This document shows, piece after piece, positions 6,216 to 10,461 of a stretch of 46,589 nucleotides of DNA (position 1 is the first letter of the stretch; each line of letters opens with the position of its first letter). Source of the DNA: Bacteroidales bacterium (GTDB lineage Bacteria; Bacteroidota; Bacteroidia; Bacteroidales; UBA932); contig JAFTDE010000054.1 in NCBI GenBank assembly GCA_017454335.1, positions 1 through 46,589 on the forward strand. The letters run 5' to 3'. The notes beneath the pieces were generated by a model. It did no database searches. It was not told the origin of the DNA and saw nothing but the letters and a program-made list of their open reading frames with translations. Made by a program: the position numbers and the translations under genes.

Positions 6216-7500
6216 GGTTATCACCCTGGGCTGTTCCAAGAACCAGGTCGATACCTCCCACCTGCTGGCCCAGCTGCCGGCGGGGGAGTTCGACGTGGTC
6301 CCCGAAGAGGAAGACGCGGAGGTGGACGTGCTGCTGGTCAATACCTGCGGCTTCATCGGCGACGCCAAGGAGGAATCCATCCAGACCATCCTGAAATGCG
6401 CCGCCCTCAAGGAGAGCGGGCAGGTCGGGAGGCTGGTCGTATTCGGCTGCCTGTCACAGCGTTATGCAGATAAGATGCCGGATCTGATTCCGGAAGTGGA
6501 TGCCTGGTACGGGGCCCGGGATCTCGATCCCGTCATCCGGGAACTGGGCGCCACGCCCTCGGATTCCCTGCGCACCGGACGCTATGCGCTGCAGCCCGGA
6601 CGGCCCTACGCGTACCTGAAGATCTCCGAGGGCTGCGACCGGCGCTGCGCCTACTGCGCCATCCCGCTGATCCGGGGAGCGCACAAGTCCGTGCCCATTC
6701 CGGACCTGGTCCGGGAGGCGGAAGGGCTGGCCGCCACAGGCGTGAAGGAGCTGATCCTGATCGCCCAGGACACGACCTACTACGGACTGGACCTGTACGG
6801 ACACCGGGCCCTGGCGGAACTCCTGCAGGCGCTCTCCGCCATCCCGCAGATCGCCTGGATCCGCATCCATTATTCCTACCCGGCGGATTTCCCGGAGGAC
6901 GTGCTGGACCAGATGGCTTCCAACCCCAAGGTATGCAAGTACCTGGACATCCCGCTGCAGCACATCGCCGATCCGGTGCTGGAGCGCATGCGGCGGCATG
7001 TGGACGGCGCCTGGACGCGCCGGCTGATCGCCACGCTGCGCAGCCGCGTCCCGGGCGTGGTGCTGCGTACGACCCTGATCGTGGGGCATCCCGGCGAAGG
7101 GGAGGCCGAGTTCGAAGAGCTGATGGATTTCATCCGGGAGGCCCGCTTCGAACGGCTGGGCGCCTTCCCGTATTCGGAAGAGGAGGACACGTACGGAGCG
7201 CTGCACTATGCCGACGACGTGCCCCAGGAGGTCAAGGAATCGCGCTACCGCCTCCTGATGGAAAGGCAGGCGGAGATCTCGACTGCGTTCAACGAGTCGC
7301 GTGTCGGGACGGAAGAGACCGTGCTGGTGGACGACTGGGTGGACGGGACTCTGGTCTGCCGGTCGCAGTACGAGAGCCCCGAAGTGGACGGGGAAATCCT
7401 GGTTCCGTGTGCGGAAGGGAAGTCGCTGGCCGGGCAGTTCATCCGGGTGCGGATCACCGCGGCGGACGCCTACGACCTGCAGGCTGAAATAATGCCGTAG
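6184..7500 (+). CDS. rimO: Ribosomal protein S12 methylthiotransferase RimO
   Basis: A radical SAM methylthiotransferase that modifies an aspartate of ribosomal protein S12. It has 438 residues in three domains. The N-terminal UPF0004 domain has the cluster cysteines C17 (TLGCSKN), C55 (NTCGF) and C89 (FGCLSQ). The radical SAM cluster is C151-x3-C155-x2-C158 (GCDRRCAYC). A C-terminal TRAM domain covers about 375-435. The LGCSKN form and overall length favour RimO over MiaB. No ATG gives a full N-terminus; the TTG at 6184, inside the DUF5606 gene, places the first cysteine at the usual position and is the likely start. Its stop directly touches the 3' end of rnpB on the other strand. Confidence 0.93.
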   Translation: MISKSPKKRIKVITLGCSKNQVDTSHLLAQLPAGEFDVVPEEEDAEVDVLLVNTCGFIGDAKEESIQTILKCAALKESGQVGRLVVFGCLSQRYADKMPDLIPEVDAWYGARDLDPVIRELGATPSDSLRTGRYALQPGRPYAYLKISEGCDRRCAYCAIPLIRGAHKSVPIPDLVREAEGLAATGVKELILIAQDTTYYGLDLYGHRALAELLQALSAIPQIAWIRIHYSYPADFPEDVLDQMASNPKVCKYLDIPLQHIADPVLERMRRHVDGAWTRRLIATLRSRVPGVVLRTTLIVGHPGEGEAEFEELMDFIREARFERLGAFPYSEEEDTYGALHYADDVPQEVKESRYRLLMERQAEISTAFNESRVGTEETVLVDDWVDGTLVCRSQYESPEVDGEILVPCAEGKSLAGQFIRVRITAADAYDLQAEIMP

Positions 7501-7804
7501 GTGGGACCGTAAGCCGGTTTCTGTTTTATTCTGCCATTTATCTTCGCAACCTACCCCCTGGCATCGGCCGGGCCGGCCTCATCTGCCAGTATATTTGGTT
7601 TTGCAGAACCCGGTGCCGTACCCGCCGGACATCGCTGCCCGGCGTCGTGAGCTCTTGCCTCGCGTTTTCACCCTCACCGGCACGGGGCCGGCAGTCATTC
7701 TCTGTTACGGCTGACAAAAAGTTACCTCCTTCTGCGCTTTCCGCAGCGGGTCGCCCTGTTCTGTCCGGACTTTCCTCCCTTGCGGGCGGCAGATCGTCCC
7801 ACCT
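7501..7804 (-). ncRNA. rnpB: RNase P RNA (class A-like)
   Basis: The catalytic RNA of RNase P, which matures tRNA 5' ends. On the minus strand the universal 5' motif GAGGAAAGTCCGGAC is at 7763-7777. The conserved core GAGGGTGAAAACGCGAGG and CAAGAGCTCAC follows. Near the 3' end comes ACAGAAACCGGCTTA, the standard terminal motif. The ends pair as P1: GTGGGAC near 7803 with GTCCCAC at 7501-7507. Ends are set by this helix and may be off by a few bases. A -7 element lies just upstream (7825-7832). The gene is convergent with rimO and has no spacer from it. Confidence 0.95.
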
Positions 7805-7824
7805 GTGACATTACTTAGGGGCTG

Positions 7825-7832
7825 CAAAATTA
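7825..7832 (-). promoter_or_regulatory. -7 promoter element for rnpB
   Basis: The minus strand reads TAATTTTG followed by CAG, about 20 nt before the mature RNA. It faces away from the promoter of the cyclotransferase gene, whose -7 element lies 21 bp further right. Confidence 0.6.
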
Positions 7833-7853
7833 GTCATTTTCTTCGAAAACGGC

Positions 7854-7861
7854 TATCTTTG
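7854..7861 (+). promoter_or_regulatory. -7 promoter element for the glutamine cyclotransferase gene
   Basis: TATCTTTG, an exact consensus match, 21 nt upstream of the ATG at 7883. Confidence 0.65.
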
Positions 7862-7882
7862 TCTGACTCAAAGCAACTGAAC

Positions 7883-8641
7883 ATGCACAGAATAGGCAAT
7901 ATACTGGCCGTGCTGCTGGTCTGCGCCGGCTGCCAGGCCCGGGTCCGGGAGTACCGGGTGGAAGTCGTCCGGGAGTATCCGCACCAGGTATCCTCCTACA
8001 CCCAGGGGCTGTTCTTCCAGGACGGGCAGATGTACGAGAGCACCGGGCAATACGGGGAATCGACTTTCCGCAAGGTGGACCTGGGGACCGGAGTAGCGCT
8101 GCGCAAGCTGGATTTCGGCCGCAAATATTTCCTGGAGGGATCGGTCATGCTGGACGGCAGCCTGTATCTGCTGACCTGGACGAACAAGGTCGCCTTCGTG
8201 TATGACGCCGCCACCCTGGAATACCGGCAGACCTATTCCTACCCGCGCGAGGGCTGGGGCCTGACGACGGACGGCAAGGAACTGATCGCTTCCGACGGAT
8301 CGAACCGGATCTATTTCCTGTCCAAGGACTTCAAACTGCAGCGGACATTGTCCGTGACCCTGAACGGGCGGCCGCTGCGTTACCTGAACGAACTGGAATG
8401 GATCGACGGGAAGATCTGGGCCAATGTCTATACGACGGACATGATCGTGATCATCGATCCCAAGTCCGGGGAAGTGGAAGCACGGATCGACTGCACCGGG
8501 CTGCTGCCGCAGCACCTCCGGGACGCGGACACGGACGTGCTGAACGGCATCGCAGTGAATCCCGCCGACGGACGCATCTACCTGACCGGCAAACGCTGGA
8601 AACGTCTGTACGAAGTCCGGCTCGTCGAGAAAAAGGACTGA
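7883..8641 (+). CDS. Glutaminyl-peptide cyclotransferase (plant-type beta-propeller), lipoprotein
   Basis: A 252-residue predicted lipoprotein of the glutamine cyclotransferase family (five-bladed beta-propeller, as in papaya and bacterial QC), which turns N-terminal Gln into pyroglutamate. The signal peptide ends in VCAGC with the lipid-anchored Cys at 17. Diagnostic segments are SYTQGLFFQDGQMYESTGQYG, LTWTNKVAFVYD, REGWGLTTDGKELIASDGSNRI, NELEWIDGKIWANVYTTD and DVLNGIAVNPADGRIYLTGKRW. The frame stays open further upstream, but the ATG at 7883 was chosen because it follows a promoter and starts the signal peptide. In this phylum many exported proteins have Gln after the signal cleavage site, which fits an envelope-located QC; that link is inferred. 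Confidence 0.85.
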   Translation: MHRIGNILAVLLVCAGCQARVREYRVEVVREYPHQVSSYTQGLFFQDGQMYESTGQYGESTFRKVDLGTGVALRKLDFGRKYFLEGSVMLDGSLYLLTWTNKVAFVYDAATLEYRQTYSYPREGWGLTTDGKELIASDGSNRIYFLSKDFKLQRTLSVTLNGRPLRYLNELEWIDGKIWANVYTTDMIVIIDPKSGEVEARIDCTGLLPQHLRDADTDVLNGIAVNPADGRIYLTGKRWKRLYEVRLVEKKD

Positions 8642-8642
8642 T

Positions 8643-8671
8643 ACCTGCCCACCGGGTTCGCGGGCGCAGGT
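8643..8671. terminator. Imperfect stem-loop after the cyclotransferase gene
   Basis: ACCTGCCC (8643-8650) can pair with GGGCGCAGGT (8662-8671) with a small bulge. It begins 1 nt after the stop codon, so it may stop or stabilise the transcript. There is no T tract, so a standard intrinsic terminator is doubtful. Confidence 0.3.
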
Positions 8672-8681
8672 GCGATACCGG

Positions 8682-8771
8682 GGCATGGAACCGGAACTTC
8701 GAACCGGGACTTGCAACCGGGGCTTGGAGCCGGGACTTGCAACCGGAACTTCGAACCGGGGCATGGAACCG
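8682..8771. repeat. Seven 13-bp tandem units in mirror order
   Basis: Seven consecutive 13-bp units, each ending in CCGG, lie at 8682, 8695, 8708, 8721, 8734, 8747 and 8760 (the last lacks its final G). They are A GGCATGGAACCGG, B AACTTCGAACCGG, C GACTTGCAACCGG and D GGCTTGGAGCCGG, in the order A-B-C-D-C-B-A. The cores of B (TTCGAA) and C (TTGCAA) are palindromic. The last A unit runs into the inverted repeat that follows. Confidence 0.9.
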
Positions 8772-8821
8772 CTCCAGGAATGCTTTCCCGTCAGGGGCTC
8801 TCCCGCATTCCTGGAGCGGTT
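8767..8821. repeat. 17-bp perfect inverted repeat with 21-nt loop
   Basis: AACCGCTCCAGGAATGC (8767-8783) is exactly complementary to 8805-8821. The left arm begins inside the last 13-bp unit. It would form a stable hairpin in either strand, but no T tract follows on either side. Confidence 0.85.
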
Positions 8822-8844
8822 TCCGTGTCCCGGGAGTGCCGTTC

Positions 8845-9092
8845 TGCAGAAAAAACAGCGAAAATTCCGCAAAATCACGTTCCGACAGGCATTTTGCAGA
8901 AAAACCGACGAAAAATCTGCAAAACCATGTTCCGGGAGGGCATTCTGCGGAATAATCGGCAAAAATTCCGCAAAACCATGTTCCGGGAGGGCATTCTGCG
9001 GAATAATCGGCGAAAATTCCGCAAAACCATGTTCCGACAGGCATTTTGCAGAAAAACCGGCGATTATTCCGCAAAATCACGGTCAGGCTGAC
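8845..9092. repeat. Five tandem hairpin modules of 50-51 bp
   Basis: Each module is a 27-nt dyad plus a 23-24-nt linker. Dyads lie at 8845-8871, 8895-8921, 8946-8972, 8997-9023 and 9047-9073. Dyads 3 and 4 pair TGCGGAAT with ATTCCGCA (8 bp). Dyad 2 pairs TGCAGA with TCTGCA, a compensated change at the fourth pair. Dyads 1 and 5 have A opposite C there, which is a G-U pair in minus-strand RNA. The linkers are two near-identical variants (AAACCATGTTCCGGGAGG and AAATCACGTTCCGACAGG types), so this is not a CRISPR array. The right arm of one dyad can also pair with the left arm of the next, giving an alternative fold. Confidence 0.88.
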
Positions 9093-9120
9093 TATTTAGC
9101 AGTCCCACCTCCGCAGGAGT

Positions 9121-9210
9121 AGCGGCTGGGGGCAGTTCCGCAGCGGGAATGCTTGAAACGCGAGAGCGTTTTGTATTGCATTCTCCGCGCGGAACCTGCC
9201 CCCGGCCGCT
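9121..9210. repeat. 90-nt long interrupted hairpin with GAGA tetraloop
   Basis: The outer arms AGCGGCTGGGGGCA and TGCCCCCGGCCGCT pair with one G-T wobble. Inside these come GTTCCGC with GCGGAAC, then GCGGGAATGC with GCATTCTCCGC, then AAACGC and GCGTTT around a GAGA tetraloop (9162-9165). Only short bulges interrupt the stem. The wobble and the GNRA loop suggest an RNA fold, read from the plus strand. The 3' arm overlaps the first of the 26-bp repeats. Confidence 0.8.
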
Positions 9211-9358
9211 TTCAGAGGGAGCTACTTTCGCCGCTTTCAGAAGAATCTACCTTCGGCCGCTTTCAGAGGGAGCTACTTTCGCCGCTTTCAGAAGGGTCCA
9301 CCTTCAGCCGCTTTCAGAAGGGTCCACCTTCGGCCGTTTTCAGGGGTAGTTGCACCCC
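9204..9358. repeat. Six tandem 25-27-bp units, each with a small hairpin
   Basis: Units start at 9204, 9230, 9255, 9281, 9306 and 9332, each as GGCCGCTTTCA (or close) plus a hairpin. Units 4 and 5 pair GAAGG with CCTTC around GTCCA. Units 1 and 3 have GAGGG with CTTTC, still paired through G-U in plus-strand RNA. Unit 6 has GGGGT with ACCCC around AGTTGC, a fully compensated stem. Unit 2 keeps only GAAG/CTTC. A degenerate seventh copy (CAGTTCAGAAGGGTT) follows near 9372. Confidence 0.85.
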
Positions 9359-9381
9359 GGATGACCCCGCGCAGTTCAGAA

Positions 9382-9535
9382 GGGTTTGTAGAAAGTGAAG
9401 CACGCGGACCGGCCTCTCACGGCCCTGTGAGGCATGCCCCTGTGCTCAGACTCGCCATTTCGGCCCTCTGAGCACACGCACCCCCCACAGAATGGCTTCT
9501 GTGGCTTCCTCGCGTGCTTCACTTTTTACAAAACC
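9382..9535. repeat. Cloverleaf-like fold: 25-bp outer stem with three inner hairpins
   Basis: The outer arms at 9382-9406 and 9511-9535 pair over 25 positions with one G-T wobble and one mismatch; the core is GTGAAGCACGCG. Inside lie three separate hairpins. CTCAC/GTGAG (9416-9420, 9427-9431) is extended by GC past a bulge. TGTGCTCAGA/TCTGAGCACA (9441-9450, 9467-9476) is perfect. CCACAGAA/TTCTGTGG (9485-9492, 9497-9504) closes a TGGC loop. The fold is a four-way junction. It does not resemble a tRNA in arm lengths or conserved bases. Confidence 0.82.
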
Positions 9536-9593
9536 GCAAAAGCCCCCTCAGTCCACCCGGCCGGCCCGGCACTCTGTCCGCCCCATCTACGAG

Positions 9594-9619
9594 TCAACCC
9601 CGCATCACTGCGGGGTTGA
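9594..9619. terminator. Perfect 11-bp stem-loop
   Basis: TCAACCCCGCA (9594-9604) pairs with TGCGGGGTTGA (9609-9619) around TCAC. The stem looks like intrinsic terminators of this phylum, but neither strand has a T tract after it. It lies about 85 nt downstream of the minus-strand promoter at 9709-9716, so it could be an early structure of that transcript. Confidence 0.45.
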
Positions 9620-9708
9620 TCGGTTAGTTAGTAGTGTATTACCTTAGAAGGTTAATTATTGTTGGTTAGAATCTCTTAAAAAGAGTAGAGTTGTTTCATT
9701 TCCTGTTG

Positions 9709-9716
9709 CAAAGGTA
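9709..9716 (-). promoter_or_regulatory. Strong -7 promoter element with no protein gene downstream
   Basis: The minus strand reads TACCTTTG followed by CAAC, the classic strong form of the -7 element. A TTGTGG about 22 nt upstream could serve as the -33 element. Transcription would start near 9702 and run left through the structured repeats. The only reading frame at the start is seven codons long (ATG at 9699, stop at 9676, peptide MKQLYSF), which may be chance. The first gene met on that strand is rnpB, 1.9 kb away. Confidence 0.6.
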
Positions 9717-9777
9717 CACATAATTTTTGTATCCACAAGTTTTTTTAAAAAAATTTGCGAAAAAATTGTCCGAGTTT

Positions 9778-10461
9778 TTAAAATTCTTTATTAAGCAGCT
9801 CCGGCCGGAGGAGGCGCGTCCGTTCGAGGGCCTGCTCGTCCTGCCAGGCGCGGATCAGCTTGGGATTGCCGCTCAGCAGCACGTCGGGCACTTTCCAGCC
9901 GTTGTATTCCGCGGGGCGCGTGTAGATGGGCGGGGACAGCAGGCCGTCCTGGAAGCTGTCGCTCAGCGCGGAGGTCTCGTCCGTCAGGGCGCCGGGAATC
10001 AGGCGCACGATGGAGTCGGCCAGCAGGGCCGCCGGAATCTCGCCGCCGCTGACGACGTAGTCGCCTACGGAGATCTCCCGGGTGACGAGGTGTTCGCGGA
10101 TGCGGTGGTCGATGCCCTTGTAGTGTCCGCACAGCAGGATCAGGTTTTCCTTCAGCGAGAGCTGGTTGGAAATGGCCTGGGTCAGCCGTTCCCCGTCGGG
10201 GGAGAGGTAGATGACCTCGTCGTAGTGCCGTTCGGCCTTCAGTTCCTCCATCATCCGGTAGACGGGCTCGACCATCATCACCATGCCGGCGTCTCCGCCG
10301 TAGCTGTAGTCGTCCACGCTGCGGTGGGGGCCGATGCCGTATTTGCGGATGTTGTGCACGTGGATTTCGACGAGGCCTTTCCTGATGGCCCGTCCCACGA
10401 TGGAATGGCTGAGCGGGCTGTCCAGCAGCTCCGGAACGACGGTAAGGATATCTATGCGCAT
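9778..10461 (-). CDS. trmD: tRNA (guanine37-N1)-methyltransferase TrmD
   Basis: A SPOUT-class enzyme that makes m1G37 in tRNAs and so prevents frameshifting. It has 227 residues. Visible motifs are [13 protein letters not shown] at the N-terminus, [13 protein letters not shown] (50-62), LSPDGERL (86-93), the trefoil-knot segment [10 protein letters not shown] (111-120) and GDYVVSGGE (133-141), followed by the C-terminal helical domain with [20 protein letters not shown]. It stands alone here rather than with rpsP-rimM-rplS as in many bacteria. Its 3' end faces the structured repeat region, with an AT-rich stretch but no clear terminator between. Confidence 0.95.

Follow-up and report, generated by a model that had tools for sequence, protein, structure and literature searches.

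The island at 8642-9720 lies between a glutamine cyclotransferase gene and trmD in the window, i.e., the whole 46.6-kb stretch of DNA that was analysed. It consists of two unrelated parts: a pile of repeats from 8642 to about 9589 and, at 9590-9705 on the minus strand, what is very probably a small RNA gene. The initial annotation had described a gene-free, repeat-dense island, and the repeat and hairpin analysis bears this out. Repeat and hairpin density is as high as first described, six of the eight Tandem Repeats Finder rows of the window fall within 8642-9720, and no credible gene was seen inside it. The reading of all structures as repeats holds up to about 9589; the hairpin at 9590-9622 and the AT-rich tract leading from it to the promoter instead make up a separate, conserved, predicted transcription unit. 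The features of the locus are as follows.

7494-7805, minus strand: RNase P class A RNA, adjoining the cyclotransferase gene
7805-8641, plus strand: glutamine cyclotransferase gene (PF05096), the convergent neighbour
8677-8771: 13-bp tandem array (Tandem Repeats Finder; own-genome comparison)
8767-8821: hairpin element B, a perfect 17-bp inverted repeat (8767-8783/8805-8821) with a few copies elsewhere in the genome
8826-9084: 51-bp hairpin-bearing array C (4.9 copies at 8826-9076), with many dispersed arrays
9124-9202: palindromic element D (hairpin), searched as 9085-9202
9203-9343: 26-bp tandem array E (Tandem Repeats Finder; own-genome comparison)
9380-9540: long palindrome F with terminal arms of about 25 bp, present at five other places in the genome
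9590-9705, minus strand: conserved, very probable small RNA gene of about 115 nt, its start placed from the promoter
9778-10461, minus strand: trmD (PF01746), the syntenic neighbour of the small RNA gene

Repeat elements in the convergent gap

The genome assembly that contains the island comprises 2.16 Mb in 63 contigs and is 78.8% complete. Within it, the island stretch has 40 further matches, some of which are one palindrome counted on both strands. Four families are dispersed through the genome, namely the 51-bp array, the 9124-9202 palindrome, the 9380-9540 palindrome, and the 8767-8821 hairpin. They occur elsewhere in other combinations, and the 9085-9202 element alone occupies 14 places, the island copy included. 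The 13-bp and 26-bp arrays have no second copy among the own-genome stretches compared. By eye, the hairpin arms of the 51-bp array (8826-9084) differ in matched fashion between units (GCAGA/TCTGC versus GCGGAA/TTCCGC). Copies of the 9380-9540 palindrome also lie at contig ends (C20 and C43, bases 17-175), and the assembly seems to break at this element.

Relatives have a different picture at the same place. A search for the 9085-9202 element in 36 further genomes, 22 from the genus and 14 from the order, gave no match, and a search with the whole island against 60 other genomes, with up to seven candidates scored per genome, returned no other repeat element. The RNA motif and the cyclotransferase gene occur together at 53 loci, facing each other in 26 and otherwise arranged in 27. 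Three of the facing loci are the own locus, with a gap of 984 nt by the same measure (981 nt from the stop). Eleven facing rows have gaps of 32-84 nt and represent eight or nine distinct genomes (L028, L033, L044, L056, L063, L114, L118, and L119, with L141, L143, and probably L172 as repeats of these); of the remainder, one gap is 451 nt and eleven are 1.8-5.0 kb. Because the short tail-to-tail layout exists without the block, the latter was most likely added in the own lineage. The convergent gap between the cyclotransferase gene and the small RNA gene beside trmD would thus have been filled, within that lineage, by unrelated dispersed repeats.

One of the readings offered by the initial annotation, a place where repeat elements accumulate, is therefore right for 8642 to about 9589, given the dispersed own-genome copies, the confinement of the 9085-9202 element to the own genome among those compared, and the absence of the block from eight relatives with the same convergent layout. 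Its alternative of a large structured RNA is not supported, as relatives match only positions 944-1079 of the island query (up to seven candidates scored per genome). It is extremely unlikely that the 1.1 kb as a whole forms a single structured RNA or a single recombination site: hairpins are dense and a promoter reads towards the block, but the repeats are dispersed elsewhere in other combinations, are missing at the same place in the eight relatives, and are separated from the promoter by a terminator. The repeat half is a caution against inferring a large RNA from a promoter and a high density of hairpins.

The palindromes resemble REP elements in being dispersed as copies through the own genome. 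In a comparison with REP/BIME elements and RAYT-mobilised REPINs (PMC3733652), the likeness lies in the dispersed palindromes, which here sit in a convergent gap and are unseen in relatives. Unlike the elements described there, those of the island measure about 79 and 160 bp, are accompanied by tandem arrays, and occur at about 5-15 places each. They also differ from the RAYT system by lacking a link to Y1_Tnp genes. Three such genes (PF01797) are present in the own genome (C31:343-675, C10:20908-21075, and C34:3389-3541), and no island element lies within the 3.5-4.0 kb around each; REP/RAYT mobilisation was set aside for want of this association.

The probable small RNA gene beside trmD

The right-hand part of the island has the following anatomy, all on the minus strand.

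9736-9738: -33 element TTG, separated by N19 from the -7 box
9709-9716: -7 box TACCTTTG (TAnnTTTG)
9673-9685: 5' hairpin H1, variable in sequence and present in many members (fold of the own member)
9650-9671: conserved segment 1, UUCUAACCAACAAUAAUUAACC, largely unpaired, with the final three bases serving as the 5' arm of H2
9641-9652: middle hairpin H2 (ACCU..AGGU; fold of the own member)
9622-9639: segment 2, AUACACUACUAACUAACC, the proposed seed, with an invariant or nearly invariant core and predicted to be unpaired except for the last C
9590-9622: terminator hairpin with a mostly GNRA-type loop (covariation, fold), containing a GC hairpin at 9595-9618

The minus-strand promoter pointing into the island, as initially claimed, is present (TTG-N19-TACCTTTG, 9709-9738), and would drive a unit some 115 nt long that carries a terminator of its own. 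We take TTG-N19-TAnnTTTG to be the Bacteroidetes-type promoter with its -33/-7 consensus. A TAnnTTTG box stands upstream of the motif at 61 of 65 loci. At the other end, the terminator has both-sided changes at eight of ten pairs in an alignment of 55 of the 64 available sequences; outside the alignment are L020, L025, L045, L059, L060, L063, L064, L068, and L081, several of them divergent, plus L030, which is cut at a contig end. Terminator stability has a median z of -6.1 against shuffles, and 76 of 77 terminators are far more stable than these. The two inner hairpins are weaker than the terminator: ranked against shuffled versions of the same segment, 36 of 74 5' segments (H1) and 38 of 77 middle segments (H2) reach the best tenth. 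In the alignment, ACACUACUAACUAACC and UCUAACC show little or no variation at most columns. There are two copies of CUAACC, both in unpaired stretches, and a single UUAACC at the H2 arm. No reading frame is kept across the small RNA sequences, as judged by eye, and the unit thus combines its own promoter, its own terminator, and no conserved open reading frame, as a small RNA gene should. Rfam gives no match in 9590-9720, either at gathering thresholds or at E-values up to 1; five hits to Rfam families, far below gathering scores and none within 9590-9720, were discarded.

A DNA search and a covariance model search of related genomes had been proposed in the initial annotation, and they separate the two halves of the island. 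The former, in 61 genomes, gave matches in 28 including the own; the other 27 are all of the same genus, and all of their matches fall inside query 944-1079, the AT-rich unit at the right edge on the minus strand, which is conserved, with no match to the repeats. The 9590-9705 unit is conserved by sequence, synteny, and covariation. Absence of the block from relatives together with a lack of covariation, which was to mark neutral repeat expansion, is accordingly what was found for the repeats and not for the last 115 nt.

Around 80 trmD genes of named genomes, the RNA is found at 48 loci (45 by motif and three more by covariance model), including those of Candidatus Cryptobacteroides merdigallinarum, avicola, and excrementavium. 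In 56 of the 63 loci with both, a distance of 76-263 nt separates the motif from the trmD match end. Selection via trmD applies to 45 of the loci; 19 were fetched only by the DNA of the RNA, and in 17 of these trmD lies within 1.5 kb as well. The covariance model R1 matches 202 of 250 genus genomes and 81 of the 98 of good quality, nearly always with one copy per matching genome and in a few with two. In the family sample it matches 16 of 199 genomes (15 from the genus itself, one from a different genus), and in the order 10 of 295, eight of which lie outside the family with E-values above 2e-4. These eight look like chance terminators on inspection and were rejected. The R1 scans scored 14-21 candidates per genome (17 in the genus scan), so that absences are not firm. 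The small RNA is conserved across the genus that includes Candidatus Cryptobacteroides. Many of the loci come from rumen and gut samples, according to record titles. Two genus genomes (L276, L294) contain diverged small-RNA-like units with ACACAACTAACTAACC, a promoter box, and a strong terminator. Neither the RNA in phages nor the island or the RNA in plasmids gave a match; four viral contigs with the 16-mer look like chance by context, the best model E-value being 0.06, and phage-borne copies were dismissed.

The conserved unit could in principle be no more than the terminator-bearing 3' end of the trmD transcript, and the unit and trmD do share a strand in 51 of 63 loci. The opposite orientation of the other 12 and the unit's own promoter box make this very unlikely. 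Promoter box, covarying terminator, synteny, and genus conservation together argue strongly, at the level of sequence, for a small RNA gene at 9590-9705.

Candidate target sites

The small RNA may act in trans by base pairing, which we infer from complementary sites in messenger leaders; segment 2, AUACACUACUAACUAACC, would pair in various registers close before the start codons of mRNAs. An 11-mer complementary to the motif is rare, with eight further sites in 23 genus genomes; seven of these lie at translation starts in the sense orientation (by eye), two of the seven being inside the first codons. A wider pattern scan gave 69 sites in 55 of 200 genomes, 67 of them distinct. A simple sense bias of GGTTAGTTAG at starts was rejected, with 18 sense and 15 antisense among the 67, and the contrast between sense and antisense sites is weak (p 0.03 to 0.09). 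The sense sites include carA (own genome), chorismate mutase (two genomes), a homoserine-kinase-type (thrB) gene, a lysA-type gene (two genomes), and aconitase (two genomes). The commonest sense match, fusA, was rejected as a conserved target, with GGTTAG in just 4 of 30 leaders. The idea that GGTTAG is a start signal in general was also dropped, since none of 280 leaders has it. Two genomes with pattern sites, G544 and G594, have no R1 match among the 17 candidates scored per genome.

The antisense rows include a distinct set. In about ten of the 21 antisense rows (including L237, L247, L255, L262, L283, L285, L291, and L293), the small RNA's own letters, CTAACTAACC, precede the ATG of a TonB-receptor-type gene by 1-18 nt, and a Plug domain was found in all eight of the scanned proteins. 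Base pairing does not explain these own-letter sites, which are possibly a sponge or the sites of a second regulator. Separately, a genome without an R1 match (G002, L292) contains a short hairpin-ended stretch with GGTTAGTTAG, which complements the small RNA and may represent an anti-RNA or a coincidence.

Leaders (-40 to +3) were also ranked by their duplex energy with AUACACUACUAACUAACC, using 1549 leaders of three genomes and 120 shuffled segments as control. AUACACUACUAACUAACC is the segment of the own genome and of the relative G581; G016 has C at the second base. It forms predicted duplexes of 10-13 bp beside start codons. The best two of the 1549 leaders are both PII (PF00543), at -14.6 in the own genome and -14.4 in G581, and their sites differ in letters between the two genomes while both end at the ATG. 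Over all 1549 leaders, nine reach -13 or below, and 12 of 120 shuffles give as many. For the AT-rich leaders of the three genomes, defined by a cut set after a first ranking, the native count at this threshold is six, equalled by 1 of 120 shuffles.

In G581 the signal is strong among AT-rich leaders. Six of all its 570 leaders reach -13 or below (6 of 120 shuffles as many), and five of its 224 AT-rich leaders, the held-out stretch included, do so against a shuffle mean of 0.35 (0 of 120 as many). Four of these five precede PII, glutamine synthetase III, aspartokinase/homoserine dehydrogenase, and chorismate mutase/prephenate dehydratase; the fifth precedes a beta-eliminating lyase, presumably a threonine aldolase. 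A sixth strong match, just outside the AT-rich cut, belongs to a TonB-receptor-type gene (L349; phmmer). The nitrogen and amino-acid class thus accounts for five of the six strongest G581 matches versus 2 of 27 shuffle-matched control genes, the two being a LeuA-type and a homoserine-kinase-type gene, and 12 of the 27 controls having no Pfam match. Fisher tests, for a class named after seeing the matches, give 1e-4 (5/5) and 5e-4 (5/6) against all 27 controls and 0.001 to 0.006 (0.006 for 5/6) against the 15 Pfam-named controls only.

Other results are less favourable. In a held-out 160-kb stretch of G581 with 117 genes, no leader reaches -11, the best being PurE at -10.9, and among AT-rich leaders near trmD none reaches -10, either with the RNA (0 of 212) or without it (0 of 174). 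At the weak energy of -9, the 29 native matches are fewer than the shuffle mean of 58.2. The PII leader of G016 has no site, the glutamine synthetase site is found only in G581 among four leaders, and thrB, pckA, the PFK-type gene, and dapB each have the site conserved in one of two. TonB receptors were rejected as a segment 2 regulon (1 of 16 at rank <=0.05); with segment 1, 3 of 16 fall at rank <=0.05 versus 28 of 1187 others (Fisher 0.007), so that they may still be targets of segment 1.

Proposed regulation and known systems

The proposed targets are PII, glutamine synthetase III, carbamoyl-phosphate synthase, aspartokinase/homoserine dehydrogenase, the homoserine-kinase-type enzyme, chorismate mutase/prephenate dehydratase, a diaminopimelate-decarboxylase-type enzyme, and aconitase. 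Pairing would block ribosome access to these mRNAs and reduce their translation, where we infer both the repression and an inducing signal. That the small RNA covers the start regions of nitrogen and amino-acid mRNAs as a base-pairing regulon is plausible from the predicted duplexes, at somewhat less than even chances. The regulon is a proposal only, because site conservation is mixed and the held-out stretch yields no strong match; confidence is lowered further because 6 of 120 shuffles equal the native count over all G581 leaders and the sixth match is TonB-type. The full explanation, a repeat-filled gap next to a trans-acting small RNA that base-pairs with nitrogen and amino-acid mRNAs, comes close to an even chance.

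Somewhat doubtful, if still a serious competitor, is the reading in which the small RNA is real, its conserved segments serve for protein binding or as a sponge for another RNA, and the leader matches are chance. The two unpaired copies of CUAACC with UUAACC at the H2 arm, the CTAACTAACC letters before TonB-receptor-type genes, and the lack of enrichment among weak duplex matches are all consistent with it. The strongest G581 matches argue the other way by falling mostly in one functional class (5/6 versus 2/27), as does the recurrence of PII in two genomes with different letters. It is unlikely that the GGUUAG/UAGUAGUGU leader elements have nothing to do with the small RNA and instead bind a regulator that controls amino-acid genes at transcription or translation. 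Such a regulator would account for elements that sit mostly at one functional class and for sites in G544 and G594, where no RNA match is listed, but the latter absences rest on just 17 candidates scored per genome, and the PII registers differ (UAGUAGUGUAUU versus UAGUUAGUUAGUGUU), which fits sliding along an 18-nt RNA segment better.

Under the base-pairing proposal, a genus-wide small RNA of Bacteroidota might use a single near-invariant segment of 18 nt to coordinate nitrogen assimilation with amino-acid synthesis. Targets could evolve complementarity to any register of this segment, such that the pathway is kept per species while target genes and registers turn over; this wider generalisation is tentative. 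If the pairing is real, it constitutes a directly testable post-transcriptional switch for nitrogen use in bacteria of the genus.

Nitrogen control by small RNAs is known from NsiR4 in cyanobacteria, GlnZ in enterobacteria, and NrsZ in Pseudomonas. The RNA described here would resemble these in its proposed action on glutamine synthetase and nitrogen genes, a likeness by proposed target only, and differs from them in belonging to a different phylum and in the broader set of amino-acid targets proposed. Among the papers searched, none looked, from its title and the beginning of its abstract, like a report of the 9590-9705 RNA, of a small RNA beside trmD, or of any small RNA in Bacteroidota that targets nitrogen or amino-acid genes.

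Within the phylum, the closest comparison is with GibS and FopS of Bacteroides thetaiotaomicron (PMC11697453). FopS has, according to that paper, been deposited in Rfam, and the RNA beside trmD has no match in the Rfam copy used. GibS and FopS belong to 12-15 paralogues and act on glycan genes (PMC11697453), whereas here there is one copy and the predicted targets are nitrogen and amino-acid genes. A further difference is that no RRM protein, the type of chaperone looked for, was found in the own assembly, which is incomplete (79%). The shared features are a Bacteroidetes-type promoter, a conserved seed in an unpaired region, and an intrinsic terminator, and GibS pairs with target mRNAs (PMC11697453).
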